Positions 11,712 to 63,139 of a stretch of 64,000 nt of DNA are shown one piece after another. The notes under the pieces were generated by a model. It had not been told where the DNA came from. It made no database searches and was given only the letters and a program-made list of their open reading frames with translations. The stretch comes from a virus: the IMG/VR virus record IMGVR_UViG_3300013094_000040, positions 1 to 64,000 of that record, one strand, 5' to 3'. The stretch's first letter is position 1, and every line of letters begins with the position of its first letter. The position numbers and the translations under genes were made by a program.

Positions 11712-11740
11712 TTTAATGATGTCTCCCGACAAGTTAGTGC

Positions 11741-11769: not shown

Positions 11770-11797
11770 CCGATTAATAATAGCCGTTTATTTTTTG

Positions 11798-11805: not shown

Positions 11806-11827
11806 TTATATATTAGGGCATTAGCAT

Positions 11828-45780: not shown

Positions 45781-46095
45781 ATGACCGACATAGAAAAACT
45801 CACCAACGAAGTGCGCCGTGCCACTGACTATCAGGCTAATAAAAAATTCTTACGAGAAAAAATTCAAACAGATTTACATTATGCCCACAACGGCGGACTG
45901 TTTAAGATTACTCCGGAGTTAATTGCTTTTACGCAGGGCTGGCCAATGGATGATATGTATTTAGAAGATGTTTATGGTAATCCAATTCAAGTTGACCGGC
46001 CGGTATTCTTAATACAGGCACAGCAACACTATCAAAAAGTAATGAACACCTGGCACCAACAACATGCAGAACTCAAAAAAATCCGCCGAGTCTAA
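45781..46095 (+). CDS. Small conserved-type phage protein of unknown function
   Basis: The 104-residue product is charged and mostly helical, with KIQTDLHYAHNGGLFKITPEL, DDMYLEDVYGNPIQV and a C-terminal helix NTWHQQHAELKKIRRV. Proteins of this pattern appear in T4-like phages of aquatic bacteria near structural genes, as far as I recall, with no known role. It is the first gene behind the promoter at 45725, and no ribosome binding site is visible in its short leader. The following glycosyltransferase-like gene starts inside it with a 32-base overlap. Confidence 0.65.
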   Translation: MTDIEKLTNEVRRATDYQANKKFLREKIQTDLHYAHNGGLFKITPELIAFTQGWPMDDMYLEDVYGNPIQVDRPVFLIQAQQHYQKVMNTWHQQHAELKKIRRV

Positions 46096-47759: not shown

Positions 47760-48087
47760 ACTTTCTTCTGCCATAGAAGAATTTAAACCAATTCCAATTG
47801 AGTATAGATTACACTATAATGAACTTGGTGAAATCTATGCCAGCTCGATGACCAACCACCCCGAGTCTAATAGATATATAGTAGTTGATAAAACTGTCTA
47901 CGAACAATCTTTTTTATATCGTGTTTTACATGGTAAGATAGTTAAGATTGAAACAGACAATGGATATCGTGTACAATTAAAAAAATCCGACACAGGATTT
48001 CAAGTAGTAAAAGATCACGCAGGAATTCTATTAGAAGAAAACGAAACATATAATCAAACGGAGTACTATGCCTACAGAAATAATTGA
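47728..48087 (+). CDS. Small protein of unknown function
   Basis: The 119-residue product has no recognisable family. It has an acidic N-terminal helix (FWDELSSAIEEFKP) and a beta-rich body with EYRLHYNELGEIYASSMTNH, RYIVVDKTVYEQ and GYRVQLKKSDTGF, which suggests a small mixed fold. It overlaps the glycosyltransferase-like gene before it by 32 bases and the next gene by 20 bases, so it belongs to the same translation chain. No cysteine motif, signal peptide or membrane segment is present. Confidence 0.6.
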   Translation: MSQEQQTFWDELSSAIEEFKPIPIEYRLHYNELGEIYASSMTNHPESNRYIVVDKTVYEQSFLYRVLHGKIVKIETDNGYRVQLKKSDTGFQVVKDHAGILLEENETYNQTEYYAYRNN

Positions 48088-48964
48088 TGTAGCAGATTTA
48101 GACTGCATATTTTTAACTTATGACGAACCAAAAAAAGAAGAATTCTGGATACAAATCTCAAACATGGTCCCATGGGCCAAACGAGTGGACGGAGTTAAAG
48201 GCAGTGACGCCGCTCACAAAGCGGCTGCAGACGCTTCTGACACAGACCGTTTTGTGCTTATTGATGGTGACAATATTCCAGATCCTGAGTTTTTCAACCT
48301 ACAACTGGTTCTTGACGATTCTAATCGTTCTTGCGTTTTTCGTTGGAGGGCTCGCAACGCTGTTAATGGATTAATGTACGGTAATGGAGGTATGAGTTCG
48401 TGGACCAAAGAGTTTGTTTATAACATGCGTACACACGAAGCAACAGACGGCACAGCAGAGAATGATGTAGAGTTTTGTTTTTATCCTAACTACTGGGCAA
48501 TGGCTGATTGTTACTCGACAACATATCCTAACGCTACTCCGTTCCAAGCCTGGCGTGCCGGCTTCCGAGAAGGTGTTAAGATGTGTTTGGACCGCGGAGC
48601 AAAGCCTACACTACAAGAATTTGAATCACGTGTTAACAGTCGTAACTACGATAATTTATGCATCTGGCAAACAGTAGGAGCAGATGCAGACAATGGCTTT
48701 TGGGCTATATACGGAGCCCGACTTGGAACATTTATGATCATGGTTGAAGGGTGGGATTATCGCCAGGTACAAAACTTTGATGTATTAGCAAAACTGTGGG
48801 AGTCATTTAGTAACGATGGCCCGGACCAATGTACCAGTGTAGGAGACATATTGCGTAAAAAATTAAGTTTGCCTATTGTTGACATGGATGCAGACGAAAG
48901 TCGATTCTTTAAGCATCATTATAAAGCTGGATTTAAAAATCGAGGGCCAATGGTGAGAGAATGA
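48068..48964 (+). CDS. Putative glycosyltransferase-like protein (DGD motif)
   Basis: The 298-residue product begins with a short beta strand (DCIFLTYDEPKKEEFW), then AKRVDGVKGSDAAHKAAADAS and FVLIDGDNIPDPEFF, in which the IDGDN near residue 62 fits a DxD nucleotide-sugar motif. Later phrases are FRWRARNAVNGLMYGNGGMSS and GFREGVKMCLDRG. Similar proteins occur in T4-like phages and are usually left as hypothetical or glycosyltransferase family 2-like. It is not close to the two genes upstream, so it would be a separate activity. The stop overlaps the next ATG in the form ATGA. Substrate unknown. Confidence 0.55.
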   Translation: MPTEIIDVADLDCIFLTYDEPKKEEFWIQISNMVPWAKRVDGVKGSDAAHKAAADASDTDRFVLIDGDNIPDPEFFNLQLVLDDSNRSCVFRWRARNAVNGLMYGNGGMSSWTKEFVYNMRTHEATDGTAENDVEFCFYPNYWAMADCYSTTYPNATPFQAWRAGFREGVKMCLDRGAKPTLQEFESRVNSRNYDNLCIWQTVGADADNGFWAIYGARLGTFMIMVEGWDYRQVQNFDVLAKLWESFSNDGPDQCTSVGDILRKKLSLPIVDMDADESRFFKHHYKAGFKNRGPMVRE

Positions 48965-49494
48965 AACTATTAGTCAATGGTGCAAGTTTTAGTTATGGTA
49001 TAGGTAGTTGGCCTGAGTTATTGCCAGCCGATACAACTAATTTAAGTCAATGGAATGCTGGTAACACTTACATACAGGCAAGTACAAACGAGGAACTGCA
49101 TAAAAATTCCTACGACATGGTTATTGTAATGTGGTCACCGTTTGATAGAACAGATACTCGTATAAGTGCAACAGAATGGAAATTTGAAACAGATACAGAA
49201 ACAGATCAATGGATTCGATACGAATCAAGTTTACGTAGAATTATTATGCTACAAGAGTTTTTAAAGTATCGTAATCAACCTTACTTGTTTACGTTTGCAC
49301 GTACACTAAAACAGTTTGATAAATTTACAGAATTATACAATCAACTTGATCAAACACAAGTATTTCCTCTGACTCTACAGTCTGTAATTAAAGAAAATAA
49401 CTGGTATGCTACAGATGGAGTACATCCTAATTTAGAAGCACATCAGTATTATGCCAAGCAGTTAACAGAATATCTGGAAGGAAGATTAAAATGA
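48961..49494 (+). CDS. SGNH-hydrolase-like protein, copy 1
   Basis: The 177-residue product begins MKLLVNGASFSYG, a variant of the GDS block with Ser9 as possible nucleophile, and ends with DGVHPNLEAHQYYAKQ, matching the catalytic DxxH block of SGNH hydrolases, enzymes that remove or transfer acyl groups from sugars and lipids. The protein is short but spans both catalytic blocks. It has no signal peptide. It lies in ATGA overlap with both neighbours, next to an ANL acyl-activating enzyme, which would suit a pair that attaches and removes an acyl group. Of the three SGNH-like genes here it has the most canonical last block. Confidence 0.65.
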   Translation: MKLLVNGASFSYGIGSWPELLPADTTNLSQWNAGNTYIQASTNEELHKNSYDMVIVMWSPFDRTDTRISATEWKFETDTETDQWIRYESSLRRIIMLQEFLKYRNQPYLFTFARTLKQFDKFTELYNQLDQTQVFPLTLQSVIKENNWYATDGVHPNLEAHQYYAKQLTEYLEGRLK

Positions 49495-50582
49495 AACGTG
49501 CAGTTATTTGCGTTAAAAATCCTGAACTCCGTATTCCAGAATTAGAAAATGAATATAGTCTAATGATTGTAAGTCCTGATTCTTCTGAGTCAAGAATGAA
49601 TTATCTGTTAGAAAAATCAGACTACAGTCTATTAGTAACCGATACAGGCACAAAAACTCGCAACGGTAAAGATTACCCGGGTGAAAGATTATATTGGTAC
49701 ACCAGCGGTACCACAGGAGACAGTAAGTTCTACGGATTCAATGATGAACAAAAGAATATAATGACACAGTCAATGATTGATGCTTATCATCTTGATGCTA
49801 ACCATAGATATTCATCTGTTATGCCACTGTGGCATGCTCATGGGCAACACTTTTACTGGGCAACAAAACAAGCTGGATGCGAGACTAAATTTTTTAATAC
49901 TAAACAATTTCACTTAGTGGAAGCAAGTCGCCCAACACTAATGACAGCAATTCCTAAAATTATTAATTTTTTTACAAGATATCAATTTCCAGACTTAAAG
50001 TTAATTGTATCGGCGTCGGTGGCATTTCCGTTAACAAAATTAAAAATAGCTCAGGACTACTATCGGGTTCCTATTCTTGATGCGTTTGGTATGACAGAAG
50101 CCATGGGATTTTGTATTACTAATCCACTCAATGGACCTATCAAGCCCGGCACGGTTGGACGACCTTTTAGCGTCGAAGCAAAGTTAGAAGGAAATCGACT
50201 ATTAATTAAAGGACCAACTGTAGTAGTTGATGGCTGGATGGATACTGGTGATTTAGCAACAGTAGATGAAGATGGTTACTATACTATAATTGGTCGTAGC
50301 GTAGAACAAATAAATGTCAATGGGATAAAAGTCAATCCTTTAAGTTTAGAAGCGCAACTATTGGAAAAGTTTTTTGATCTGCAACAAGTAACAATATTTG
50401 GTGAACATGATGTTAACTGTATATACGTAGGCGATGTTGCTGAAACAGAAATACGTAGATTTCTTCTGTCGTTGGGAGATCATTGCTTTCCAAAATTGTT
50501 AATTAAAACGGATGAAATCCCAACAAACGAAAACGGCAAAATATCAAGAAAATATCTATCGAGGAATTTTATAAAATGTTAA
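49491..50582 (+). CDS. Compact ANL-superfamily acyl/AMP ligase
   Basis: The 363-residue product carries nearly all ANL motifs: A3 YTSGTTGDSK (70-79), A5 DAFGMTEAMG (197-206), A7 DTGDLATVDEDGYYTIIGR (251-269), the A8 hinge region NVNGIKVNP, and A10 NENGKISRK with Lys350. It should therefore activate a carboxylate with ATP and pass it to a thiol or amine. It is about 140 residues shorter than usual acyl-CoA synthetases; the missing part is at the N-terminus, where only about 65 residues precede A3. The gene overlaps its neighbours by 4 and 7 bases. Unlike the ANL protein at 8324, the catalytic lysine is present. The substrate cannot be read from the sequence. Confidence 0.85.
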   Translation: MKRAVICVKNPELRIPELENEYSLMIVSPDSSESRMNYLLEKSDYSLLVTDTGTKTRNGKDYPGERLYWYTSGTTGDSKFYGFNDEQKNIMTQSMIDAYHLDANHRYSSVMPLWHAHGQHFYWATKQAGCETKFFNTKQFHLVEASRPTLMTAIPKIINFFTRYQFPDLKLIVSASVAFPLTKLKIAQDYYRVPILDAFGMTEAMGFCITNPLNGPIKPGTVGRPFSVEAKLEGNRLLIKGPTVVVDGWMDTGDLATVDEDGYYTIIGRSVEQINVNGIKVNPLSLEAQLLEKFFDLQQVTIFGEHDVNCIYVGDVAETEIRRFLLSLGDHCFPKLLIKTDEIPTNENGKISRKYLSRNFIKC

Positions 50583-51016
50583 TTAAAGAAACACACACAA
50601 GAACAATTACCAAAGCAGTCTTATACCGAATAGCATCTGTTATTGCAATAATGCTGTTAACTGTATTTTTTGGTGGCGACCTGCAGTCTGCAATTAAAGT
50701 TGGTGCCGGGGTGATTGTATTTGGTACAGCAATTTATTACCTACACGAGCGTGTATGGATTCGATTTATCTGGGGCAGAACCAACACTGGATCGGACAGA
50801 GTTAATCGAAGTTTGGCCAAAACAGTAATCTATCGTGCAATAACAATGGTAGTAAGTTTTATACTTGCTAAGGTTTTTATTACAGGTAGTAGTAATGCCA
50901 CAGCAGTAGAGTTTGCTATTGCACAGGCAGTGACCAATATGTGTTTGTTCTTTATAACCGAGCGTATATTTAATACAATTTCCTGGGGACTAACAGTAGA
51001 ACAACAAGATGAGTAA
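50576..51016 (+). CDS. Membrane protein with two DUF2061-like units
   Basis: The 146-residue product has about four hydrophobic helices in two similar halves. Each half starts with a basic S/T-rich segment before an alpha helix (RTITKAVLYRIASVIAI and RSLAKTVIYRAITMVVSF) and ends with a HERVW or TERIF phrase (YYLHERVWIRF, FFITERIFNTI), the pattern of DUF2061 membrane proteins. The family has no proven function; in bacteria it is often found near surface or sulfate-activation genes. Here it is the only obvious integral membrane protein of the operon and could anchor or export the product. It overlaps both neighbours by 7-8 bases. Confidence 0.7.
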   Translation: MLIKETHTRTITKAVLYRIASVIAIMLLTVFFGGDLQSAIKVGAGVIVFGTAIYYLHERVWIRFIWGRTNTGSDRVNRSLAKTVIYRAITMVVSFILAKVFITGSSNATAVEFAIAQAVTNMCLFFITERIFNTISWGLTVEQQDE

Positions 51017-52394
51017 ATCAAATTTTTTAGCATCTGCAGAATCAATGAAGGAGAGTCTTGGTCCTGCTCTTTGTTTGGCCAAGTGGCAACAGGTAAGTTT
51101 ACATTTGCCGACTGGACTTAACAATAGTTGCTATCATCCGCCGTTACATGCTATAGATCCTGTGCCACTTGTTGCTAATCCAGGTGCATTACATAATACA
51201 GCACATAAAAAAGCACAGCGGGTTATTATGTTAAAAGACGAACGTCCAAATGAATGTAGTTATTGTTGGACGCAGGAGGACATGGGAAATCTAAGCGACA
51301 GGCATTATCGTTCTGGAGAACCATGGGCCGCAGAACATTACGAAAAAATAAAAAACAGTACAGGAGAAGAAGATGACGTTGTACCCAGTTATGTTGAAGT
51401 TAACTTTAATCACGGCTGTAATCTCAAATGTAGTTATTGCAGTCCGCAGTTTAGTTCCTCGTGGGCCGAAGAAGTTGCGAGATATGGAGGGTTTCCTACT
51501 GGCACTATTCACAATGATCCCAGTCACTTTACTGGTCGTAATCGTCCTATCCCTGCTCGAGAAGACAACCCCTATGTAACAGCATTTTGGAATTGGTGGC
51601 CTACACTATATCCGCGACTAAAACACTTTCGAATGACCGGTGGCGAACCATTGATGGATAAGAATACTTACAAGGTATTTGACTATGTCTTGGCCATGCC
51701 AAATCCAGAATTGCACTTAGACGTAACCAGTAACTTTAGTGTGGAACCTGTTTTATTTGAAAAGTATCTGGGCTATGTCAAACAATTATGTAATACTCAA
51801 ATTGAACATTTCATGCAGTATGTTAGCTTAGATTCGGGCACACCCGCACACGCTGAATACATTAGGCATGGATTGGATATGAATAGATTGGTTGATTATG
51901 TTGATCGATACTTGACCGAAGTTCCATCGCGTAATAGTCTGACATTTATTATTACAATGAATAATTTGAGTGTGCTGGGACTGCAACGCCAATTGGACTA
52001 TATTTTAAGTCTACGTCGCAAACACAGTACAACATATCAACGTGTTTGGTTTGATACTCCCTTGCTTAGACAACCTCGCTGGCAAAGCCTACAAATCTTG
52101 CCACCTGTGTATGTTTCGGTATTAGAGCGTGTAGCCGATTGGATGGATCTCAACATGGAAACCGCCGAAGATCCATTTCACGGCTTTAAAGACTATGAAG
52201 TACAGCGTATGCGCCGCGACATAGATTGGATGAAAGAAGGTTGCAATCTTGATCCAGAGTACGTTAAAATGCAACGTGCTGATTTTTATCGATTCTTTAA
52301 CGAGCACGATAAACGCAGACATACTGACTTTTTAAAAACATTCCCGGAGATGAAAGAATTCTGGAAAGAGTGCGAATATTATGCCAAAAATTAA
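51009..52394 (+). CDS. Radical SAM protein 1 (N-terminal Cys-rich region)
   Basis: The 461-residue product has the radical SAM cluster motif CNLKCSYC (Cys137, Cys141, Cys144) and the TGGEP phrase at 210-214 that contacts the SAM amine. Before the core lie further cysteines (ALCLAKWQQ, NNSCYHPP, ERPNECSYCWTQED), resembling the N-terminal twitch or SPASM-like region of a family of uncharacterised radical SAM proteins; this could hold a second Fe-S cluster. The closest neighbour in pattern is the protein at 53360, with the same order of SHFTG/NHFTHS and NPYV phrases, so the pair looks like a duplication. A 14-base overlap leads into the next gene. The substrate is unknown. Confidence 0.85.
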   Translation: MSKSNFLASAESMKESLGPALCLAKWQQVSLHLPTGLNNSCYHPPLHAIDPVPLVANPGALHNTAHKKAQRVIMLKDERPNECSYCWTQEDMGNLSDRHYRSGEPWAAEHYEKIKNSTGEEDDVVPSYVEVNFNHGCNLKCSYCSPQFSSSWAEEVARYGGFPTGTIHNDPSHFTGRNRPIPAREDNPYVTAFWNWWPTLYPRLKHFRMTGGEPLMDKNTYKVFDYVLAMPNPELHLDVTSNFSVEPVLFEKYLGYVKQLCNTQIEHFMQYVSLDSGTPAHAEYIRHGLDMNRLVDYVDRYLTEVPSRNSLTFIITMNNLSVLGLQRQLDYILSLRRKHSTTYQRVWFDTPLLRQPRWQSLQILPPVYVSVLERVADWMDLNMETAEDPFHGFKDYEVQRMRRDIDWMKEGCNLDPEYVKMQRADFYRFFNEHDKRRHTDFLKTFPEMKEFWKECEYYAKN

Positions 52395-53376
52395 TTTAAC
52401 AGAACAATTAAAATTTGGTAAAACATTTTGTCCGTTGCCGTTTATAAGTTATCATACTAATGTAAAAAAACAGAGAAAACTATGTTGCATATCTCCCAAA
52501 GTTGTTGATGACACAAGGTTAACTGAAATTCGTACAGATATATTAAATGATGTAGAAGTTGTTGAGTGTACAAAGTGTTATAAGCAAGAAGAATCTAAAT
52601 TGATTAGTCGCAGACAGCAACTACTCAGAGATTGGTTAGTAAACGAAGAAGATGTTGTTGCAGCAATTGAAACACATCTGGCAGGTAATGAACCGGCCTA
52701 TGTTGACTACGATCTTAGATACAGCAATCTCTGCAATTTAGAATGTCAAACTTGTAACGCAACTGACAGTAGTTCGATCGCATTGCGAGCAGGGATTGCA
52801 TTGCCGTTTTTGCAGTATGAGCCAGAAATTGATATTAACAAAAATGCAAAAAGAATTTATTTTGCCGGGGGAGAACCATTTTTAATAAAATCTTTTAGTC
52901 GTTTGCTTGATACTGTTGAAAACACCGACTGCGAAATTATTATTAATACAAATGCTACAACACTATCCAGCCATATGCTACTGTCATTGGATAGGTTTAG
53001 TAATATTAGTTTTACAGTCAGCATAGATGGATTTGGACAGTTGAACGAACAAATTAGAAAAAATAGCCAGTGGGATAAATTAGAATCTAACTTAGAAATA
53101 TTAGCCAATCGCTATAATGGATATCAAGGAATAAATGTTAATACCGTTGTACAAAAAGATAATGTAAATCATTTATTAGAATTAGGGCAGTGGATAGAAA
53201 GTAAGACAATAACTCTATGGAGATTGACAGTTCTTGACAAGCCTGAGGAATTTCATTTTTCTTTAAACAACAATATAACAATACCCGATGAGTTGTTAGA
53301 ATTGCCCATAGTTCGTTCTAATATTGAAACTTTAAAAACATTAGAATATATAAAAGATTATGCCAAGACAAAATAA
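52381..53376 (+). CDS. Radical SAM protein 2 (short form)
   Basis: The 331-residue product contains CNLECQTC (Cys118, Cys122, Cys125) and a GGEP phrase near 163-166 (YFAGGEPFL). The N-terminal region has TFCPLPFISYH, KLCCISPKV and VECTKCYKQEESKLISRR, the C-P-F/W, CC and CxxC pattern of an N-terminal twitch domain. It is about 100 residues shorter than its neighbours, mostly at the C-terminal end and in the loop after the cluster motif. The later part has ISFTVSIDGFG, an ISID-type beta strand of the radical SAM barrel. Both ends overlap other radical SAM genes by 14 and 17 bases. Confidence 0.85.
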   Translation: MPKINLTEQLKFGKTFCPLPFISYHTNVKKQRKLCCISPKVVDDTRLTEIRTDILNDVEVVECTKCYKQEESKLISRRQQLLRDWLVNEEDVVAAIETHLAGNEPAYVDYDLRYSNLCNLECQTCNATDSSSIALRAGIALPFLQYEPEIDINKNAKRIYFAGGEPFLIKSFSRLLDTVENTDCEIIINTNATTLSSHMLLSLDRFSNISFTVSIDGFGQLNEQIRKNSQWDKLESNLEILANRYNGYQGINVNTVVQKDNVNHLLELGQWIESKTITLWRLTVLDKPEEFHFSLNNNITIPDELLELPIVRSNIETLKTLEYIKDYAKTK

Positions 53377-54715
53377 CGAAACAGATTTAGAATACAAACG
53401 TAGAGTGATTGACATTAAGTCAGAATCATTCTGTGGAGCTAAGTGGTACAATGCTACTATATGGTTAGGGTCGGGGATGACTACAAGTTGTCATCATCCA
53501 CTACCACATAAAGTAGAAGTAGCAGATGTTGAAGCGAACCCAAAAGCACTTCATAACACTCCTAAGAAAAAAGAGGAACGTGCTATGATGCAGAAAGGAG
53601 AGCGTCCAGCAGGTTGTGAATACTGCTGGAAAATAGAAGATATCGGTAGGGACAATATTTCAGACCGAGTTTATAAAACAGTTATATATACAGACGAAGA
53701 ATTGGAGACAGCCTATGTTGGGCCATCACGCAACGATGTGGATTTACGAACGCTTGAAATTGCTTTTGATCGCACATGCAATTTTGGGTGTAGTTACTGT
53801 AACCCTGCTTTCAGTAGCACTTGGGTTAAAGATATTGACACCAATGGACCTTTTACCGGCCTCACTTCAGACGGCAGGAATCATTTTACTCATAGCCATG
53901 GAAGTAGTCAGCTATATAAGTTTGGTGAGACTAATCCTTACGTTGAAGCGTTCTTTAAGTGGTGGGAATCAGACCTAAGTCGTACACTAACAGAGTTACG
54001 TCTTACTGGTGGGGAACCCCTGATGTCCGGGGACACTTGGAAGTTATTAGAATGGTTCAAGACCAAAGATGTCAATCCCGACATGCGATTTGCCATGAAC
54101 AGCAATCTTGGTGCCAAAGACGATTTAATTGATCGACTAATTGACGCTACACACAGTATTCGACATTTCCATTTATACACCAGTAATGAAAGCATGAGTC
54201 AACAAAGCGAATACATTCGCGACGGGCTTGTCTGGGACACCTGGGCTAATAATGTAGAAAAAGTCTTAACCAATGGCAATATAGAAGGTTTCCATATGAT
54301 GTGCACCATTAACGCATTATGCTTAGATACTCTGGACAGTTTCTTAGAGTGCTGCATGAATTGGAAACGTGAGTACGGAAAAGACTTCCCTACATTTTCG
54401 CTAAATATATTACGATTCCCAAGTTTTCAAAGTCCTTTAGTACTACCAGATGGAATTCGCACTCACTATAAAATTAGATTGCAAGAATGGCTAACAGCCA
54501 ATCAAAATGATCCTTTATTGCATCAGTTTGAAATTAATCAACTGCAACGCCTAATTGATTATTTAGATGTAGTTAAAACTCCACACGCAGACGCTGCAGA
54601 ACAACATATATTACAGCAAGACTTCAAACGTTTTTATACACAATATGATCAACGTAGAAATAAAAACTTTACAGAAGCTTTCCCTACATTAGCCAGTTGG
54701 TACAATTCATTATGA
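53360..54715 (+). CDS. Radical SAM protein 3
   Basis: The 451-residue product has CNFGCSYC (Cys140, Cys144, Cys147) and RLTGGEPLMSG. Upstream of it are SFCGAKWYNATIW, TTSCHHPL and AGCEYCWKIED, the same cysteine order as in the protein at 51009. After the cluster motif come NPAFSSTWVKDI and NHFTHSHG, again parallel to 51009. The last 60 residues carry the QRRNKNFTEAFP phrase, equivalent to KRRHTDFLKTFP in 51009 and also seen in other members (EDFFTVFPEL), a shared C-terminal signature of this phage set. It ends in an ATGA overlap with the next gene. Confidence 0.85.
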   Translation: MPRQNNETDLEYKRRVIDIKSESFCGAKWYNATIWLGSGMTTSCHHPLPHKVEVADVEANPKALHNTPKKKEERAMMQKGERPAGCEYCWKIEDIGRDNISDRVYKTVIYTDEELETAYVGPSRNDVDLRTLEIAFDRTCNFGCSYCNPAFSSTWVKDIDTNGPFTGLTSDGRNHFTHSHGSSQLYKFGETNPYVEAFFKWWESDLSRTLTELRLTGGEPLMSGDTWKLLEWFKTKDVNPDMRFAMNSNLGAKDDLIDRLIDATHSIRHFHLYTSNESMSQQSEYIRDGLVWDTWANNVEKVLTNGNIEGFHMMCTINALCLDTLDSFLECCMNWKREYGKDFPTFSLNILRFPSFQSPLVLPDGIRTHYKIRLQEWLTANQNDPLLHQFEINQLQRLIDYLDVVKTPHADAAEQHILQQDFKRFYTQYDQRRNKNFTEAFPTLASWYNSL

Positions 54716-56028
54716 CAGACAAATTAGAAAATTATTATAAAAATTACAACTATGGATTCCGTAAGCCAGTCTACATTGACGAAAAAGACTTACGAGAAGA
54801 TCAACTTGATCGCCTAATCAAGAGCGATACATTTTGTATGATTCCGTGGCTTCATATGCATGCCTTTCCAGATGGTCGTGCTTTTCCTTGTTGTCTAAGC
54901 GAACCTGAGTATCCTATTGGCAATCTCAAAACACAGACTATGCGCGAAATATGGAACGACGAACCATTAAAACAAATGCGTCGTAATATGCTTGATGAAA
55001 AACCTTGTAAGGAATGTAATAAGTGTTACGAGCAAGAAAAATCAAAGTTGTTTAGTATGCGCGAAAGTGCCAATAAAAACTTTGGACACCATGTAGGCAT
55101 AGTTGATGATACAAAGGAAGACGGCACCTATGACGATTTTAAACTACGTTACTATGATATTCGCTTTAGTAACCTTTGTAATTTTGCGTGTCGCACATGC
55201 GGTGGTATATTCTCGAGTAATTGGCACAAGGATGAAAAAGCCGCAGGATGGAATCCACAATACCCAGCAATAATGTATGCCGGTAAAGACGAAGATGATA
55301 TGTGGGAACAGATGCAAGAGCATATCCCGCACCTTGAACAAATTTATTGGGCCGGTGGCGAACCACTAATTATGAAAGAACACTGGAAAGTACTTGACGA
55401 GTTAGTCAAACGAGAAATGTTCCATGTACGCCTAATCTACAATACAAACTTTAGCGAGCTTAAATTTAAAGGACGTGATGTTCTTGAAATGTGGAAATTG
55501 TTTGATTGCGTTAGTGTGGGCGCCAGCTTAGATGGTAGTTATGCTCGTGGCGAATATATACGCAAAGGACAAGACTGGCGCCAAACAGTAGAAAATCGCG
55601 AACGTATGTTAGAGATTTGTCCCAACGTAGACTTTTATGTATCAAGTACTGTTAGTATGATGAACGTGTTACATATTACAGACTTCCACAGAGAATGGGT
55701 AGATTTAGGTCTACTACGCCCAATGGATTGGAATATTAATATTCTACAACACCCACATAGATATCGTGTTGATGTATTGCCCGAACATCTTAAACAACAG
55801 GCCAAAGAAAAAATTGAAAAACATTTAGAATGGCTCGAACCGCAGGATACACTACTACGTGCTACCAGTGGTTATCAGGGAGTTGTTAATTTTATGATGC
55901 AACAAGACAGCACACACGAACTAAAGAACTTTTTCCACACCAACGATCAAATTGATCGTGTACGCAACGAAGACTTTTTTACAGTATTCCCAGAACTAAA
56001 TGACATCAGACAATATAAACCTTCCTGA
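54712..56028 (+). CDS. Radical SAM protein 4, clear N-terminal twitch domain
   Basis: The 438-residue product shows the most typical N-terminal twitch region: FCMIPWLHMHAFPDG, AFPCCLSEP, PIGNLKTQTMREIWNDE and CKECNKCYEQEKSKLFSMRE. The core motif is CNFACRTC (Cys156, Cys160, Cys163), with WAGGEPLIM after it and SVGASLDGS as a later barrel strand. The frame is open to a TTG at 54697, but the ATG at 54712, in ATGA overlap with the previous stop, is preferred. The family is known from bacteria and phages but has no assigned reaction. Its C-terminus has the EDFFTVFPEL phrase shared within the cluster. Confidence 0.88.
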   Translation: MTDKLENYYKNYNYGFRKPVYIDEKDLREDQLDRLIKSDTFCMIPWLHMHAFPDGRAFPCCLSEPEYPIGNLKTQTMREIWNDEPLKQMRRNMLDEKPCKECNKCYEQEKSKLFSMRESANKNFGHHVGIVDDTKEDGTYDDFKLRYYDIRFSNLCNFACRTCGGIFSSNWHKDEKAAGWNPQYPAIMYAGKDEDDMWEQMQEHIPHLEQIYWAGGEPLIMKEHWKVLDELVKREMFHVRLIYNTNFSELKFKGRDVLEMWKLFDCVSVGASLDGSYARGEYIRKGQDWRQTVENRERMLEICPNVDFYVSSTVSMMNVLHITDFHREWVDLGLLRPMDWNINILQHPHRYRVDVLPEHLKQQAKEKIEKHLEWLEPQDTLLRATSGYQGVVNFMMQQDSTHELKNFFHTNDQIDRVRNEDFFTVFPELNDIRQYKPS

Positions 56029-57244
56029 CACAATATGTATGTTGCCCTGGATTAGTGTTGAAACCAGTCCAATGGGTACTACACGTCCGTGCTGTTTAGC
56101 ACACGAAGAAATTCGTGACGAGTATGGCGCTAAGTATGATCTAAATCACACAGACTTAGAAACTGTTTACCACAGTGAATACATGCAAGAGCTACGCAGA
56201 GAATTTCGACGAGGTGAAAAGCCCGCGACCTGTAGTCGTTGCTGGGACGAAGAAGCTGCCGGTCGCGATAGTAAACGTATACACAGTCGCGTTAGATTAA
56301 AAGAACTATATCCGCAGGTAGATTGGGCCAATGATAATCCAGATCAACTTTGGTTTGTTGATTTAAAATTAGGCAACATCTGTAACTTAAAATGCCGTAT
56401 CTGTGGGTCGTGGTCGTCGAGCAGTTGGGCTACAGAAGAAATGAATTACCTACCGCCAGGCGAGGATAAGAAGTCACACATTGCCTATACCTGGTTACGG
56501 CAAGGTGCTTGGCCACGCAAGACAACAACATTCTGGGATAATATGCGAGCCCTGTTGCCCAATATCAAGTACTTTGAGTTTACAGGTGGCGAGCCTTGGA
56601 TGATCCAGGAACACTTTGATCTACTACAATATGCTGTGGATCAAGGACATAGTCGCAATATTGATATACATTATAATACCAATGGAACACAATCACCGGA
56701 TCACGAAGAAATTTGGAAACACTTTGGGCGTGTCGACATTGCTTTTAGTATTGACAATGTAGGCGATCGTTTTGAATACGAACGCTTTGGCGCCAGCTGG
56801 ACAACTGTAAACGAAACAATTGATCGTACTCACGCAATGAAAGCCTCTACTTGCCCAAATATTACTACTCAATTATGTTTTACTATTAACATACAAAATG
56901 TCTATTATTTAGATGAACTACTGGCCTGGGCGGATACTAAGAATTTTGGTAGTGTACACTTTAATATGTTACACAGTCCCGAAGTTATGAATATACAGAA
57001 TATGACACCCCGAGCACAAGAGTTAGTCTTAACAAAATTAAAAAATACTCAATGGGCCAACAGCCACTATCAACAAGAAATTGATAATGTAATTAAATTT
57101 ATTGAATTAGGCGCAGGCAACGAGGGAGTTGAGTTCCGTAGACGTATGAAGGAAACTGATGCATATCGTCATCAAGATTTCAGAGATACACACCCTGAAA
57201 TAGCCGAGGCCATGGGTTATGCCGCAGATACAAGTAACATTTAA
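56000..57244 (+). CDS. Radical SAM protein 5, N-terminal twitch type
   Basis: The 414-residue product has CMLPWISVETSPMG, RPCCLAHEE, TCSRCWDEEAAGRDSKR, and then CNLKCRIC (Cys128, Cys132, Cys135) with FEFTGGEPWM. The barrel strand AFSIDN and the C-terminal HQDFRDTHPEIAEA, equivalent to the F--FP phrase of the other members, are visible. The ATG at 56000 overlaps the upstream gene by 29 bases. It is followed by the unrecognised protein at 57219 with a 26-base overlap, an arrangement repeated at 59196/60478. Confidence 0.87.
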   Translation: MTSDNINLPDTICMLPWISVETSPMGTTRPCCLAHEEIRDEYGAKYDLNHTDLETVYHSEYMQELRREFRRGEKPATCSRCWDEEAAGRDSKRIHSRVRLKELYPQVDWANDNPDQLWFVDLKLGNICNLKCRICGSWSSSSWATEEMNYLPPGEDKKSHIAYTWLRQGAWPRKTTTFWDNMRALLPNIKYFEFTGGEPWMIQEHFDLLQYAVDQGHSRNIDIHYNTNGTQSPDHEEIWKHFGRVDIAFSIDNVGDRFEYERFGASWTTVNETIDRTHAMKASTCPNITTQLCFTINIQNVYYLDELLAWADTKNFGSVHFNMLHSPEVMNIQNMTPRAQELVLTKLKNTQWANSHYQQEIDNVIKFIELGAGNEGVEFRRRMKETDAYRHQDFRDTHPEIAEAMGYAADTSNI

Positions 57245-58007
57245 AGATTGCCCTACGTTAGAATTAGACATTGCCGAAACAGCGGTAGGCTATAGCTATG
57301 CCAACTTAATTAAATCTAACTACGAACAAGAGTTTCCTATATTTAGGGACAGGCCCAAATACACAGTTGAATATATGTTGGAGTTAGCAAGAGAAGCTAA
57401 ACTAAAACTTGGATGGTCTTGGGAATTTGATCATTATGATGTTGGTGTAACTGCTTTACTACACAAAGACTTAGAAGAATTATTGGCCAATGGGTTTGAT
57501 CGTGTACCAGCTGAATTAGATCATTTGTTACACGAGTTACACTATTGTTTACATTTAATACAGTTTGGACAAAAACAAAAAAGAGATGCTTGGTTGCAAA
57601 TAGAATGGTTTAATGATGCAGGATTTGAATTACCTGGCACAGATCTTTTCCAGCACACACTAAAATTTGGCGACTTACGATTACAAAATCCCTATGTAGG
57701 GCATGGACCGTTACAAATATTTTTAGAAAAAGATTATACAAATATTTCACAAACTTGTAAATTTCATGATTTTGTACGCCCAGGCATTAATATAGTAATT
57801 GCCAATTTTGATAAACCTGTTGACGTTGACGCAATTATTTCAGCATTTAAAGATCATGCACCTGAGTTTGTTGAAGAGCATACAGAAGAAAAAATTATTA
57901 GTTATATTGGATACCCTGTGATTGGTCGTGTAGCAAATTTAGATGCATTAGTTGCGGTTGCTAATGCGCCCGTATTAAATTTAGAAAGTATTACATTCAA
58001 TGGTTGA
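57219..58007 (+). CDS. Unrecognised protein paired with radical SAM genes, copy 1
   Basis: The 262-residue product has no family I can name. It opens with a beta strand (IQVTFKDCPTLELDIA), then a helix-rich part with LELAREAKLKLGW, LLHKDLEELLANG and LDHLLHELHYCLHLIQ, a His/Glu-rich run that could bind metal, and then beta-rich text (PYVGHGPLQIFLEKDYTNI). The order of parts (short strand, LHKDLEEL-type helix, N/D-HLLHELH helix, G-LQIFLE strand) resembles the protein at 60478, where LHNHFERLQ, NNICHEMENL and GKTLYEVF occupy similar places. Both follow a radical SAM gene. It may be a substrate-handling or partner protein; this is inference. Confidence 0.6.
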   Translation: MPQIQVTFKDCPTLELDIAETAVGYSYANLIKSNYEQEFPIFRDRPKYTVEYMLELAREAKLKLGWSWEFDHYDVGVTALLHKDLEELLANGFDRVPAELDHLLHELHYCLHLIQFGQKQKRDAWLQIEWFNDAGFELPGTDLFQHTLKFGDLRLQNPYVGHGPLQIFLEKDYTNISQTCKFHDFVRPGINIVIANFDKPVDVDAIISAFKDHAPEFVEEHTEEKIISYIGYPVIGRVANLDALVAVANAPVLNLESITFNG

Positions 58008-59205
58008 TAACTTAAAGTTATACGTACTCGAAGAAGATTATAATATGATGGCCGGAGCCGACTGGCCAAGTTTTCGCGATTATTTAAATGGCGCTGTTGG
58101 CAAAAACCCAACCATACAAAAAGAATTAGATAAATTTACTGAAGAACAAATAGCATTAGGCCCTAAAAAAGTTTTTAATGTAACCTGGACTACCAAATAC
58201 CGACCAACAAATTTTGACGACCCTGACCACGACTTAGTTTATAAACGACAGGCATTTAATTTGCCCAGTGTTAAAACAGGAATAAAACATCGTTGCTATG
58301 TGCCATTTACAAATGTAACAGTTGACGTAAATGGCAGAGTATTTGTCTGCCACTGTGATGGATTCGTGCCTTTCCCTGTGGGACATATTATGGATTTTCA
58401 TAGTTTTGATGAAATTTTTTCAAGTCCCAAGGCTGTGGAAATTCAAGAATCTATTGCATCCGGTGAGTATAATTTTTGTGCAGTAGATCAGTGCGGTATG
58501 CGATATGCCCCAGGCAATGTAATAACACCTTTGTCCTTATACATACAAATTGATATAAGCTGTAATATTACTTGCCCAAGCTGTAGAGAACATATGGTCT
58601 TTATCAAAGATGAGCAAATTATTGATGGGTATTTTGTCTGGACCGAACGAATGAAAGAGTGGATTGCTAAATCAGATAAACCTGTACGAGTAGAATTAGC
58701 CGGCGGTGATCCTTTTGCAAGTCTTTTGTACAAGCGTGTGATTGATTCTTACGCAGAGTTATCAACAATTAATTTTAGCATTAAAACAAATGCTTTGTTA
58801 ATGAAAAAGAATTCTGAAACAATTGATAAAATAAAAGACAAAACAGTCTTTAGTATTAGCATAGATGCAGCTACAAAGGAAACTTATGAAATAGTTAGAC
58901 GTGGCGGAGACTGGGATCAACTGATATCTAATTTAGAATATTTTTTAACTTTGAATAAAACAGCATTAGGCAATTTTGTAATACAACGAGCCAATTATAA
59001 AGAATGCATAGACTTTGTAAAGTTCTGCCGTCAATATAAACTAATACCAAATTTTACAGCTTTACAAGATTGGGGCACATGGCACAACTTTGATGAGCAA
59101 TGTGTACATATTCCAAGTTCACCTCACTACGAAGAATTTAAAGAAATTTTTAAAAACAAAATTTTTAAAACAGTCAATTTAAGTTCTATTAAGGCATGGC
59201 TATGA
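58000..59205 (+). CDS. Radical SAM protein 6 (divergent)
   Basis: The 401-residue product has CNITCPSC (Cys188, Cys192, Cys195) and AGGDPFAS in place of GGEP. Before the core is a long region with CYVPFTNVTVDVNG, VFVCHCDGF, VGHIMDFHSFDEIF and FCAVDQCGM, which is SPASM/twitch-like but lacks the CxxC spacing of the others; residues 1-90 have no cysteine motif and look like an added domain. After the core, VFSISIDAATKETYEIVRRGG is a typical barrel strand of peptide-modifying radical SAM enzymes. It overlaps the upstream gene by 8 bases. It is the most distant of the seven and may have a different substrate. Confidence 0.83.
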   Translation: MVDNLKLYVLEEDYNMMAGADWPSFRDYLNGAVGKNPTIQKELDKFTEEQIALGPKKVFNVTWTTKYRPTNFDDPDHDLVYKRQAFNLPSVKTGIKHRCYVPFTNVTVDVNGRVFVCHCDGFVPFPVGHIMDFHSFDEIFSSPKAVEIQESIASGEYNFCAVDQCGMRYAPGNVITPLSLYIQIDISCNITCPSCREHMVFIKDEQIIDGYFVWTERMKEWIAKSDKPVRVELAGGDPFASLLYKRVIDSYAELSTINFSIKTNALLMKKNSETIDKIKDKTVFSISIDAATKETYEIVRRGGDWDQLISNLEYFLTLNKTALGNFVIQRANYKECIDFVKFCRQYKLIPNFTALQDWGTWHNFDEQCVHIPSSPHYEEFKEIFKNKIFKTVNLSSIKAWL

Positions 59206-60494
59206 CAAAACCCGATACCTTATGTATGGCACCCTGGACGCATACTTACCTTAGTCCACAGACTGAGCGCCGTATGTGTTGTGCAAGTAGAGAACCTGCA
59301 CAAAACTTTGAACAGTATATAGACACAGCAAGTGGCACAGGTAAGTATATACCTATTACATTAGACGAACATTGGAACTCAGATCATATGCGGTCAGTAC
59401 GTCGGCGCATGATGGCAGGTGAAACACTACCCGAATGTGATGTATGCAATAGTAAGTTATTAAACACCGACGTTTACCGTAGTTATTTTAACCAGCTGTT
59501 TGGGCATAAGTACTTAGATGCAATGGCAATGACAGATGTTACGGGTTTTACTACAATGAAACCTGTGTCGTGGGATTATCGCTTTAGTAATCTCTGTAAC
59601 TTTAAATGCCGTATGTGTGGCGATATGTTGTCCAGCGCCTGGGAAAGTGAACAACGTCAGCATCAAATGATTGACTGGACTAATCCAAAAAACAATTGGA
59701 TGAAGCCCGAAGTAAAGAAAGAAATTGAACAGTTCCAAGACACGCAAATTGAACAAGAGTTTGCCGACGCAGTAGAGGAACATCGAGTAGAAGAAGTGTA
59801 CTGGGTAGGTGGCGAGCCGTTGATGTATGAACAGCATTGGCGGTATATGAAACGTATTGTTGAATTAGGAGATGGTCCAAATGTTTACGCTCGATATAAC
59901 ACAAATCTTAGTCGTGTTAATTATAGGGGCATTAATCTCTATCGTGACATTTTGGCTGGGCTTCGAGACTGGCAAATCTGTGCAAGCATCGATGGTACGG
60001 GCCGAATTGGAGAGTATATTCGATCAGGTCTTAATTTTGATGAATGGCTTAAGAACTTCACTGAAGGAATTACGTACAGCAAACACAGCCGCCAAGTCCG
60101 TATGGACTTCACTCTTACTACACCAGGACTCTTTGAAGTACAAAAGATACAAGAACTCGCGAAAACTCTCGGAGTAGACGTATTAGCCAAAGTAGTTTTT
60201 AGTTTTTCCCCGGATATCATTATGTCTCCGCTGGCACTACCTAAGTCGGTATTACACCCTTGGGTAGACGAAATAGTTGCCGGCTTAGAACCTGGCGCCC
60301 TGCGCGACATAATGGTCCAACTTAAAACCCGTCCCACGTTTGCTGAACAATGGCCCGACACATATCAATCAGGTCTGCAACGTGGCAAACAACGCATCTT
60401 ACGACTTGAACAAATCCGAAATGATCAGTATACTATGCGTGATATACTTGCAGAAAGATCCGAAGCATTAGAATGGTATGACTCAATCAGTTAA
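59196..60494 (+). CDS. Radical SAM protein 7, N-terminal twitch type
   Basis: The 432-residue product has CMAPWTHTYLSP, RRMCCASREP, EHWNSDHMRSVRRRMMAGE and CDVCNSKLL, then CNFKCRMC (Cys134, Cys138, Cys141) and VGGEPLMY. The barrel strand CASIDGTG follows. The first residues allow two starts, ATG 59196 or ATG 59202; the second would make an ATGA overlap with the previous stop and cannot be excluded. The gene overlaps the next one, a relative of 57219, by 17 bases. It is most similar in layout to the protein at 54712 (SYRFSNLCNF versus DIRFSNLCNF, then a W-E-shaped insert). Confidence 0.87.
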   Translation: MAMTKPDTLCMAPWTHTYLSPQTERRMCCASREPAQNFEQYIDTASGTGKYIPITLDEHWNSDHMRSVRRRMMAGETLPECDVCNSKLLNTDVYRSYFNQLFGHKYLDAMAMTDVTGFTTMKPVSWDYRFSNLCNFKCRMCGDMLSSAWESEQRQHQMIDWTNPKNNWMKPEVKKEIEQFQDTQIEQEFADAVEEHRVEEVYWVGGEPLMYEQHWRYMKRIVELGDGPNVYARYNTNLSRVNYRGINLYRDILAGLRDWQICASIDGTGRIGEYIRSGLNFDEWLKNFTEGITYSKHSRQVRMDFTLTTPGLFEVQKIQELAKTLGVDVLAKVVFSFSPDIIMSPLALPKSVLHPWVDEIVAGLEPGALRDIMVQLKTRPTFAEQWPDTYQSGLQRGKQRILRLEQIRNDQYTMRDILAERSEALEWYDSIS

Positions 60495-61560
60495 AATAAT
60501 ATTAAGAAATCCACTGAATTATCGTGATCAAATTGATTATACAATCAATGTATTTGACCACGAACTTGGTGCTGACTGGACTCAAGCACTTGCGGAGTTA
60601 CTGCAATCTGGGAACCTGTTAGAAAAGAATTTCTGTTTCATGGGATTTCCTAAAACAGCACGTACATTAGAATATCTATGTAACGAACTTAACCAACACG
60701 TTCAAACAATTAATAACTTTTTTACAGATTATCAAATTGAAGAAACATTTACACCAGACAATGTAGTTGGATTTGACTGGGCCGACAATGGCGTTAACCA
60801 TGAGATAATGAACCGACTACACAATCACTTTGAGCGACTACAAGGTACAGTATGGGGGCTAAGTGATTGGTATAAACGTGCAGACTATGAAACCAAATAT
60901 GCAATTCGTCAATTGAACAATATATGTCATGAGATGGAAAATTTAATTCTCAGTCGACGCAAATTGTCAACTGACCCATATTGGGTACGTCCAAGCCAAA
61001 TTACTACTTTTTTAAATGCTCGTCGTTACGATTTAAAAGACACACATCGTCAAGGATTTTTAACCAACGGTTATGATCGTGTCTTGGGTGGTGTTTATAT
61101 GCACTGGACACAAATAGGTAAGACCTTATACGAAGTATTCCGTGATGAAGGTGCACCTGAGCTAACAGAAACAGTATGCGAAGCTATTACTGAGTTACGT
61201 TATTATAGCGGAGAGTTTGATGTTGAATGGGGCAACAATATTACCCTGGGTGGCGGACATTTCTGGCACGATAAAGAGCAGTCAGCATTCCGTGAATGGT
61301 TGGTTAACAACAATCGCGATCCCGCAGATCCTAAGCTGAGTTTAGGATACTTGCCATTGGGTCAGATTGACTTAACTGGCAGTTTTGGTACAACAGATTA
61401 TAAAACTATTTGGGACACACTAAGCAGTCACTTAGACATATATAGAATAGAAGTAGATGGAGTATCAGCTGAGTTTGACTACTGCTGGTCCGACGCTACA
61501 TATAAGCAAATGCAAATAGACATGATGAGGCCAGGATATGATTATAGTAGCCGGGGGTGA
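60478..61560 (+). CDS. Unrecognised protein paired with radical SAM genes, copy 2
   Basis: The 360-residue product has no named family. It opens with a strand and helix (SVKIILRNPLNYRDQIDYTI), then a large helical part with TLEYLCNELNQHVQTIN, NRLHNHFERLQGTVWGLSDW and IRQLNNICHEMENLIL, rich in His, Glu and Trp, then beta-rich text with GGVYMHWTQIGKTLYEVF and GGGHFWHDKEQSAF. It is about 100 residues longer than its proposed relative at 57219, with the extra part in the centre. The His/Glu pairs might bind metal. It begins within the end of radical SAM gene 7 and ends inside the next SGNH-like gene, so it is tied to both by translation. Confidence 0.6.
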   Translation: MTQSVKIILRNPLNYRDQIDYTINVFDHELGADWTQALAELLQSGNLLEKNFCFMGFPKTARTLEYLCNELNQHVQTINNFFTDYQIEETFTPDNVVGFDWADNGVNHEIMNRLHNHFERLQGTVWGLSDWYKRADYETKYAIRQLNNICHEMENLILSRRKLSTDPYWVRPSQITTFLNARRYDLKDTHRQGFLTNGYDRVLGGVYMHWTQIGKTLYEVFRDEGAPELTETVCEAITELRYYSGEFDVEWGNNITLGGGHFWHDKEQSAFREWLVNNNRDPADPKLSLGYLPLGQIDLTGSFGTTDYKTIWDTLSSHLDIYRIEVDGVSAEFDYCWSDATYKQMQIDMMRPGYDYSSRG

Positions 61561-62374
61561 TAGTTTTGTCTATGGTAGCGAACTATCAGATTGCGATACG
61601 TTTAAAGGCGCTCGTGGTAAAAATTTTAAATATAGTCTAAAAACATTTACGGCATTGGTATCTGCAGACTACGATTATGAATGCGTAGCCTGGCCTGGCT
61701 ATGGAAATGATTCTATAGCACGTAGAGTTATCGCCGAGTGTGAGTCTATATTTCCTGAACGTCCAGTGGTTATTGTAAGTTGGACATTCCCGGGCAGATA
61801 TGAATTTAGATTTAATTATAGTACCAATCAGATAAACAGTCCGTGGCATACTATTACTCCCTGGACTGTAAACACTATCGATGCTATTAAAAAAGAATAT
61901 GCAACCTTTGATGAAAAAACATTAACAGACCAAATAGCCGCATTAGATCGTGCTCAAAAAACTGGAGTAGCGGATTTTGCTGACACATTCTATCGTCACG
62001 TTGGCAATAATGAATACTGGGAAATATATTCTTCACTTAAAGAAATTGTTTATCTGCAAAACTATTTAAAAACAAATAATATACCATATTTGTTTACCTG
62101 TGCTGACAACAGTATATGGTACAATAATACCATTGACAGAGCCGACAACATTATACATAGCCTAACAGAACAAATACGCAGAGATCAAGAAAATTGGTTT
62201 TGGTTCCCAGCTGGAATAAATCCACAGGATACGCAAAGCCCAAGAGGTTTTTATCAGTGGGCCATAGAGAATAAATACCCAGTAGGAACAACACATCCAT
62301 TAGATGAAGCACATCAGGCAGCAGCCAAATTAATACAAGGAAAATTCAATGAGTTGGTTAAGAAATCTGTATAA
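61538..62374 (+). CDS. SGNH-hydrolase-like protein, copy 2
   Basis: The 278-residue product begins IIVAGGDSFVYGSELSD, an SGNH first block with Ser9, has GYGNDSIARR in the place of the asparagine block, and ends with HPLDEAHQAAAKLI in the place of the last block. The usual Asp two or three residues before the His is not present (VGTTHPLD), so the catalytic set may be incomplete or differently arranged. No signal peptide is seen. It overlaps the gene before it by 23 bases and contains the start of the 33-residue gene at 62349. It resembles the protein at 62447 in its opening. Confidence 0.65.
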   Translation: MIIVAGGDSFVYGSELSDCDTFKGARGKNFKYSLKTFTALVSADYDYECVAWPGYGNDSIARRVIAECESIFPERPVVIVSWTFPGRYEFRFNYSTNQINSPWHTITPWTVNTIDAIKKEYATFDEKTLTDQIAALDRAQKTGVADFADTFYRHVGNNEYWEIYSSLKEIVYLQNYLKTNNIPYLFTCADNSIWYNNTIDRADNIIHSLTEQIRRDQENWFWFPAGINPQDTQSPRGFYQWAIENKYPVGTTHPLDEAHQAAAKLIQGKFNELVKKSV

Positions 62375-62450
62375 CAGAATCAAGCTGGAAATCCAATACC
62401 GTAAAAAATTAAAAGAACTACGTAAACGAGATCCATTTATCTATAAATGA
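62349..62450 (+). CDS. 33-residue basic peptide gene
   Basis: A short frame with ATG at 62349 encodes 33 residues starting MSWLRNLYNR and ending RKRDPFIYK, very rich in Lys, Arg and aromatic residues, predicted to form an amphipathic helix. An AAGGA site lies 7 bases before the ATG. It begins within the end of the SGNH gene before it and ends in ATGA overlap with the next gene, so it fits exactly into the translation chain. I recall similar short peptides ending DPFIYK in other T4-like phages of aquatic bacteria, without a role; this is unverified. No cysteine or leader-peptide motif is seen. Confidence 0.7.
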   Translation: MSWLRNLYNRIKLEIQYRKKLKELRKRDPFIYK

Positions 62451-63139
62451 AAACAATATTGGCCATTGGTGACAGTTACACCTATGGAGCAGAATTACCC
62501 GACGCCGGCCACGAAAGAGGCAACGATGGATTTTTTGTTTACAATAATCCAAGCCAATTTGCCTGGCCACAGGTATTAGCTAATAAATTAGATTCTTCGG
62601 TTACCAATTTGGGATTACCCGGGGGAAGCAATGATAGGATCTTTAGAGTTACCATAGATACCCTAATCCAAAATACATACGATTTAGTCATATGCGCTTG
62701 GACAGATGTAGCAAGACTGGATTTGGTATTTAACGGACAAGAGCTTCCGGTAACTGCTACCAGCAGTTGGCATCACAGACAATTTAAATGGTTACCAGAA
62801 TATTTTGCTCAACACTATGAAGATCGACATGCTACCCAAAGTTGGTTAGTTAAACTGTTAGCACTACAAGAATATCTTAAAGGTCGCAATCAACGGTACA
62901 TTTTTGTTAATATGCAGAGTAACTGGGATTGGGCAAATGATTTAACAAAACTCGATCTTGCTCATTATTTAGATCAAGTTGATAGCCAATACTTTTTAGG
63001 TTGGAACACCGGAGAAGGAATGACTTGTTGGCAAGGTGATTGTGTTAAAGGACCCGCAGGACATCCACTGGAACTTGGACACGAACGAATAGCAGATAAA
63101 ATTTATGAACATATTGGGAATCTCGGCTGGCTTTCATGA
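62447..63139 (+). CDS. SGNH-hydrolase-like protein, copy 3
   Basis: The 230-residue product begins TILAIGDSYTYGAELPD, a good SGNH first block with Ser10, followed by GLPGGSNDRIFR with the Gly/Asn block, then VICAWTDVARLD, and it ends AGHPLELGHERIADKIYEH, where the last block usually has Asp-x-x-His; an Asp at a fitting distance is not clear. It may act on an acyl or acetyl group of a sugar. A TATAAATG sequence overlaps its start and resembles a late octamer but is rejected as a promoter. The downstream carbamoyltransferase starts inside its last 35 bases. Confidence 0.67.
   Translation: MKTILAIGDSYTYGAELPDAGHERGNDGFFVYNNPSQFAWPQVLANKLDSSVTNLGLPGGSNDRIFRVTIDTLIQNTYDLVICAWTDVARLDLVFNGQELPVTATSSWHHRQFKWLPEYFAQHYEDRHATQSWLVKLLALQEYLKGRNQRYIFVNMQSNWDWANDLTKLDLAHYLDQVDSQYFLGWNTGEGMTCWQGDCVKGPAGHPLELGHERIADKIYEHIGNLGWLS

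Follow-up and report, generated by a model that had tools for sequence, protein, structure and literature searches.

Radical SAM genes in fixed order behind glycosyltransferase genes in an uncultured lineage of aquatic phages

Radical SAM enzymes carry out some of the hardest known biochemistry, and the reason that some phages have so many has been an open question since 2010. The Campylobacter phages CP220 and CPt10, reported in that year, encode 11 and 12 radical SAM proteins, respectively, and harbor an interchangeable five-gene module (PMC2853527). A T4-like genome described in 2017, TARA_ERS488813_N000010, has 12 radical SAM genes, which that paper counts and links to iron-sulfur metabolism (PMC5332604). 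According to a 2020 report, the radical SAM cassettes of pelagimyophages lie in the host recognition cluster, downstream of the tail fibers, and are present or absent between close relatives (PMC7029224). Here we analyze a stretch of 64,000 nucleotides (the window), positions 1 to 64,000 of the 67,337-bp IMG/VR virus record IMGVR_UViG_3300013094_000040, in which seven radical SAM genes belong to one operon located directly after the tail-fiber genes. Five of the seven recur in a fixed order behind three glycosyltransferase genes, GTa, GTb and GTc, in related environmental phages. Phages with many radical SAM genes are already known; for a conserved five-enzyme core with a glycosyltransferase front end and a promoter, no description was found in the literature searched, and a paper on a jumbo lineage (PMC12619734) makes no mention of radical SAM.

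The CP220/CPt10 module resembles the window in that five radical SAM genes adjoin sugar transferase genes, which in CP220 are two nucleotide-diphospho-sugar transferase genes. The enzymes, however, are of a different radical SAM family. Six CP220 proteins tested fall outside the NCBIfam family N_Twi_rSAM (NF033640, twitch domain-containing radical SAM protein), the best of them reaching 43 bits against the curated cut-off of 170. The Campylobacter module also has an amidinotransferase gene, and its gene order and content differ. The TARA genome, compared by description only, is likewise from a T4-like phage of environmental origin with many radical SAM genes, but the available part of its paper describes no fixed cassette or glycan context. 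The pelagimyophage cassettes share the site downstream of the tail fibers, and a contig from a Pelagibacter metagenome-assembled genome (L210, see below) has the same core as the window; the accessible text, however, reports variable genes, with neither a conserved five-gene core nor a promoter (PMC7029224). Vibrio phages K566 and K567 possess four N_Twi_rSAM-type genes close together (one at 202 bits), interleaved with GT8 genes, but these show about 22% identity, lie partly on the other strand and lack the context of GTc, the tail genes and g45781, the first gene of the operon. K566 and CP220 are thus independent cases in which several radical SAM genes accompany glycosyltransferases.

The seven genes of the window are separate, intact open reading frames on the plus strand, encoding 331–461 residues, as a preliminary description of the window had listed them. 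They are R1 (nt 51009–52394, 461 residues), r2 (nt 52381–53376, 331 residues), R3 (nt 53360–54715, 451 residues), R4 (nt 54712–56028, 438 residues from the ATG), R5 (nt 56000–57244, 414 residues), r7 (nt 58000–59205, 401 residues) and R8 (nt 59196–60494, 432 residues). The open frame of R4 also permits a TTG start at nt 54697. The N_Twi_rSAM cut-off is passed, over nearly the full model, by R1 (286 bits), r2 (174 bits), R3 (306 bits), R4 (414 bits), R5 (339 bits) and R8 (286 bits). The r7 protein scores 69 bits, under the cut-off, and matches SPASM (PF13186, residues 99–165, E = 6e-7) and Radical_SAM (PF04055, E = 3e-10), both above the Pfam cut-off. The Pfam Radical_SAM match extends to all seven proteins, with E from 1.8e-4 to 3.3e-10. 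By HMMER, all seven are intact radical SAM superfamily proteins; the profile search suggested in the preliminary description left none without a family match.

The cluster motif CX3CX2C is invariant in the seven proteins and is kept by 653 of 653 long homologs in related loci. The GGEP motif is present in six and reads GGDP in r7, again in agreement with the preliminary description. That description had also recognized an N-terminal cysteine pattern in six proteins; this holds for the six, but the N-terminal SPASM match of r7 brings the number with an auxiliary-cluster-type region to seven. All core members have conserved cysteines ahead of the core, which are predicted to bind an auxiliary cluster. 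The window proteins resemble the family in having N-terminal auxiliary-cluster cysteines and then CX3CX2C; the family definition does not include an arrangement of five such genes in constant order together with glycosyltransferases. We know of no reaction assigned to N_Twi_rSAM.

An IMG/VR scan with R4 yielded 32 loci, and scans with R1 and with GTc yielded more than 580 relatives each, of which the best 80 of each were used; 150 distinct loci remained once duplicate sequences were removed. Gene labels required at least 40% identity to the window genes and the loci used are the closest relatives, so the order statistics describe the lineage at hand and not all phages. The order R1-R3-R4-R5-R8 is exact in 89 of the 95 loci spanning R1 to R8, and the remaining six are each without one of the five genes. 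Ahead of R1, g45781-GTa-GTb-GTc appear in this order in every one of 129 loci. The seven genes of the window are five core genes (R1, R3, R4, R5 and R8) and two accessory ones, r2 and r7. The accessory genes have variable insertion points, and other phages harbor other radical SAM, glycosyltransferase or SGNH genes at those joints.

Cassettes contain four to eight radical SAM genes, most commonly five; seven are found in 10 of 106 loci, a tally that includes duplicate sequences. Radical SAM genes are present in all 70 GTc loci with at least 3 kb downstream. More distant GTc loci (e.g., L190, L200 and L205) have the same front end, but their radical SAM genes have diverged, some of them being sister to R1 and R4. 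Whole contigs of 112–357 kb hold 5–18 N_Twi_rSAM matches each. The preliminary description had considered seven such genes unusual for a phage operon. This is not supported, for four to eight per cassette is normal in the lineage, and CP220, CPt10 and the TARA genome reach 11, 12 and 12. A misassembled or bacterial contig is excluded, because some 150 distinct loci share the arrangement and structural genes of T4-like type are present in the window. The preliminary description did not include the division into five core and two accessory genes, the conserved promoter or the front end of glycosyltransferases, which is likewise conserved.

A FastTree phylogeny of 155 sequences places each core gene in one clade (support 1.0 for R1, 1.0 for R3, 0.99 for R4, 0.80 for R5 and 1.0 for R8). 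R1 and R3 share a larger clade, R4 and R8 share another with accessory genes, and r7 has a clade of its own. Since each core gene forms its own clade, the core duplications are ancient, and recent duplication of the radical SAM genes of the window is ruled out; judging from the tree, the paralogs are older than these phages. The five are clades of orthologs that stay together in one order, which agrees with the earlier proposal that the strongly diverged proteins probably act on different substrates or at successive steps. The suggested duplicate pairs are likewise real but ancient similarities, R1 and R3 sharing 31% identity over 443 residues (E = 6e-67) and R4 and R8 31% over 294 residues (E = 2e-34); the pairing is not exclusive, as R4 and R5 are roughly equally close (24% over 434 residues, E = 6e-32). 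The ratio of nonsynonymous to synonymous substitution rates relative to the window is about 0.03–0.2 where the synonymous rate is unsaturated. For a close pair it is 0.05–0.09 for R1, R3 and R8, whereas R4 and R5 differ too little there to give a ratio. By these ratios the core genes are under purifying selection. In one locus (L028, nt 10025–12535) R4 and R5 are fused in frame into one 837-residue protein with two CX3CX2C motifs, which suggests that R4 and R5 act together.

All genes named in and around the operon are on the plus strand. Upstream and outside of it, c8 (nt 43262–44740) encodes a tail-fiber/tail-spike-like protein with a C-terminal Peptidase_G2-like region (PF11962, E = 1.7e-4; PHROG tail fiber, E = 7e-9); 25 of 33 loci have it at this position. 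The last gene ahead of the operon, c6 (nt 44753–45712), encodes a structural-like protein of 319 residues, a candidate acceptor whose cluster is present in 30 of 33 loci. A predicted, near-consensus sigma70-type promoter, TTGACA-17-TATACT (nt 45725–45753), stands at the operon start. It is the top promoter-like match on the plus strand near the cassette and ends 27 nt 5′ of g45781. Among 82 distinct regions upstream of g45781, 57 score at least 10 of 12, compared with about 2.5% in shuffles. In a stricter test against the starts of ten other cassette genes, the count is 43 of 61 for g45781 and 0 to 11 of 48–87 for the others. The conserved promoter therefore sets the operon apart from the preceding tail gene. 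No T4-type late promoter (TATAAATA) was found near the operon start, and their count in the window is below chance. Adjoining genes from nt 48068 through 62374 overlap by 4–29 bp, which makes them one transcription unit by anatomy.

The conserved first gene, g45781 (nt 45781–46095), encodes 104 residues and is followed by GTa (nt 46064–46909), GTb (nt 46887–47759), g47728 (nt 47728–48087), which encodes a small protein present in most loci, and GTc (nt 48068–48964). GTa and GTb are homologous GT8-like glycosyltransferases (E = 3e-6 between them). Their alignment profile matches glycogenin-1, a GT8 enzyme, at E = 1e-5, and as single sequences they give no match to Pfam PF01501 at E < 0.1. GTc is the most conserved protein of the cassette, with 60–86% identity. 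Sequence profiles gave nothing credible for GTc, which has a DGDN motif and is GT-A-like by weak fold match; the top matches in the fold search are mostly glycosyl- and nucleotidyltransferases (E about 0.008–0.1, TM about 0.3).

Between GTc and R1 the window has accessory genes for a variable SGNH/GDSL-like hydrolase (nt 48961–49494; PF00657, E = 0.009) resembling two SGNH genes downstream, a mostly window-specific AMP-binding (adenylate-forming) enzyme (nt 49491–50582; PF00501, E = 1e-20) and a DUF2061 membrane protein (nt 50576–51016; PF09834, E = 1e-14). The DUF2061 proteins of other loci sit downstream of the carbamoyltransferase. The two conserved SGNH-like hydrolases/acyltransferases (nt 61538–62374 and nt 62447–63139) precede a NodU/Nol-like carbamoyltransferase (nt 63105–64000, running to 64583 of the contig; PF16861, E = 9e-47; PF02543, E = 6e-32; PHROG 1601, E = 5e-94), found in 24 of 33 loci. 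Nearly all loci encode SGNH proteins as well as GT8 and GT-A-like enzymes, and most of those extending far enough encode the carbamoyltransferase. Variable or downstream genes encode DegT-type aminotransferases (the DegT_DnrJ_EryC1 family is matched in relatives' loci), an epimerase, GDP-mannose dehydratase, UDP-glucose dehydrogenase, FkbM methyltransferase and hexapeptide transferases. The recurrence of the fixed five genes behind glycosyltransferases and beside tail-fiber genes, in considerably more than a hundred uncultured phages from aquatic samples, suggests a conserved multi-step chemical modification, probably of a virion sugar.

We tentatively favor the reading that the locus is one operon whose products make an elaborate modification of the glycan type, the likeliest site being a tail protein of the virion. 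A glycan built and remodeled in the cell and placed on a tail protein is favored because of the sugar-type neighbors, the association seen in K566 and CP220, and the lack of a flippase (see below). The operon would be transcribed from the promoter at nt 45725–45753. GTa and GTb (GT8/glycogenin-like) and GTc (GT-A-like) would assemble a short chain of sugars on an acceptor, which might be a hydroxyl group of a neighboring tail protein. R1, R3, R4, R5 and R8 would each perform one fixed step, with the sugar, its carrier or the residue of attachment as substrate and with the help of the auxiliary cluster of the N-terminal twitch domain; the step may be dehydrogenation, dehydration, epimerization or the formation of a C-C or C-S bond. 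The SGNH proteins and the carbamoyltransferase may attach or remove acyl and carbamoyl groups. Accessory genes swapped at the joints (r2, the pair at nt 57219/58000 and the AMP-binding gene at nt 49491 in this phage) would diversify the end product among phages. The data establish what the enzymes are, the anatomy of the operon, the conservation of its core, gene order and promoter, the purifying selection and the sugar-type neighbors; the substrate, the acceptor, the reaction order and the advantage to the phage, in adsorption or host range, are all as we infer them.

Several points weigh against a glycan on the tail. Radical SAM enzymes of the SPASM/twitch kind act on peptides more often than on sugars. 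The synteny with tail genes could reflect lineage inheritance, and the invariant core is without a sugar-nucleotide synthesis gene. GTc is placed in GT-A by weak fold matches alone, and two conserved small proteins (g45781 and g47728) and a further conserved protein, u9, have no known function. With its own sigma70-type promoter, the operon is not required to be expressed together with the late virion genes.

The radical SAM proteins might instead modify residues of phage proteins directly, in the manner of the maturases of ribosomally synthesized and post-translationally modified peptides, with the glycosyltransferases acting later or independently. Twitch/SPASM architecture is typical of peptide-modifying enzymes. 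The target could be the tail fiber, the 319-residue protein at nt 44753 or g45781, the ever-present first gene of the operon. The cassette comes after the tail genes, and the top PDB match of the R1 profile, though insignificant (E = 0.6), is the sactipeptide maturase SkfB. However, no precursor-like short peptide lies beside the enzymes, as the overlapping genes leave no plus-strand gap between nt 48068 and 62374, though a precursor might be encoded farther away, and no PqqD/RRE-type domain appeared in Pfam scans at E < 0.1, though sequence searches can miss such domains. G45781 has neither conserved cysteines nor repeated core motifs, and the neighbors are sugar-type enzymes. Direct modification of residues, which we place second, seems to us rather unlikely.

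The presence of radical SAM proteins, a carbamoyltransferase, sugar aminotransferases and an adenylate-forming enzyme also resembles pathways for aminocyclitol- or aminoglycoside-like glycosides, and the operon product could be such a small diffusible or carrier-bound metabolite acting on the host or on competitors. In the PDB profile search, R4 aligns best with an aminocyclitol dehydrogenase, BtrN, in its twitch domain (E = 0.026), but the match is weak and covers the auxiliary domain only, and no whole-protein relation to BtrN-type dehydrogenases was found. No aminocyclitol synthase or exporter was identified, and the cassette is conserved together with tail genes. We consider a metabolite quite improbable.

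The decoration of bacterial polysaccharides also involves glycosyltransferases, SGNH proteins and carbamoyltransferases, and a pagP gene lies nearby in phage K566. The operon might remodel the lipopolysaccharide or capsule of the host during infection to exclude other phages. Yet the Polysacc_synt flippase family has no member in 16 large relatives, while 13 controls gave matches, which argues against an exported surface polysaccharide. The virulent-type genome leaves little time for surface replacement, and DUF2061 is the sole recognized membrane protein in the cassette of the window. We give remodeling of the host surface little chance.

Hypermodification of phage DNA bases by the radical SAM proteins, glycosyltransferases and carbamoyltransferase has the slimmest chance of the explanations considered. 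Some viral glycosyltransferases are known to hypermodify DNA (Pyle 2024, as cited in PMC12619734), and a thymidylate-synthase family gene is present in 8 of 16 large relatives. It is, however, missing from the other half, and its matches are full-length, as for ordinary ThyA. The cassette lies among tail genes and not among replication genes. No TET/JBP match was found in 16 contigs, though the control gave no match either.

The distribution scans were pattern-based, and diverged copies can escape them. In 50,697 records of cultured phages, the matches of R1, R4 and R5 are mainly to jumbo phages of Vibrio, with identities of about 22%; a short record from a single cell is also matched. G45781, the protein at nt 44753 and GTc have no match in these records, and the full cassette is absent from all of them. 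A scan of prokaryote genomes with R4 gave no match. With R1, 84,980 prokaryote genomes yielded one locus, L210 (CAJQJC010000033.1), on a 22-kb contig of the metagenome-assembled genome mentioned above, which is assigned to Pelagibacter in GTDB. L210 is a minimal version of the cassette, with a tail gene, the g45781 homolog, three glycosyltransferases, five radical SAM genes, SGNH, carbamoyltransferase and DegT-type aminotransferase genes, and it places R8 before R5. Because a tail gene and the whole cassette are present, the simplest view of L210 is that a phage contig was binned with this genome. Further contigs of the same assembled genome also match NF033640, whose cut-off is exceeded by none of 14 control genomes.

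With the fixed five behind three glycosyltransferase genes and beside tail-fiber genes in about 150 loci, the puzzle of phage radical SAM genes becomes testable: a defined operon, a minimal gene set (L210), a promoter and candidate acceptors are in hand. In the boldest reading, which we regard as possible but doubtful, jumbo myoviruses of a large aquatic lineage without cultured members would have a dedicated five-step radical pathway that has no counterpart in cultured phages. The pathway would install a radically remodeled glycan as a new post-translational modification of tail proteins, and the swappable accessory radical SAM proteins would diversify it like an antigen. A modification of the virion, if true, would add a further level to host recognition by phages and provide new enzymes.

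Of the remaining cassette genes, u6 (nt 57219–58007) is accessory, has no family match and often adjoins an r7-type gene. Several loci have the two (nt 57219–59205 in the window) side by side; their order varies, as does the joint at which they lie, as if they moved as a pair, though u6 also occurs alone. The conserved u9 (nt 60478–61560) is kept in at least 26 loci. Its AlphaFold model is confident (AF2 pLDDT 85.7) but has no fold match in the PDB by Foldseek at E < 0.001, and it may possibly represent a new fold. Beyond the window, nt 64583–65416 of the contig (L041, nt 4184–5017) encode an APS-kinase-like P-loop domain and then a cytidylyltransferase-like region with an HDGH motif; this protein clusters with the DUF2061 proteins of other loci.

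The window has a T4-like portal, whose nearest cultured relatives, at about 51%, are the jumbo phages Phosso, PA5oct-like and Atu_ph07. It also has recombination nuclease-like genes and baseplate/tail genes, named from sequence and position, and no tRNA. One open reading frame of 4277 residues (nt 23112–35945), an exceptionally long structural-like protein, lies amid the baseplate/tail genes. A second AMP-binding-type enzyme (nt 8324–9754, minus strand; PF00501, E = 5e-11) occupies an odd place between apparent gp46/gp47-like recombination nuclease genes, and a short open reading frame at nt 6035–6469 on the minus strand resembles a GIY-YIG nuclease, as judged from its sequence.

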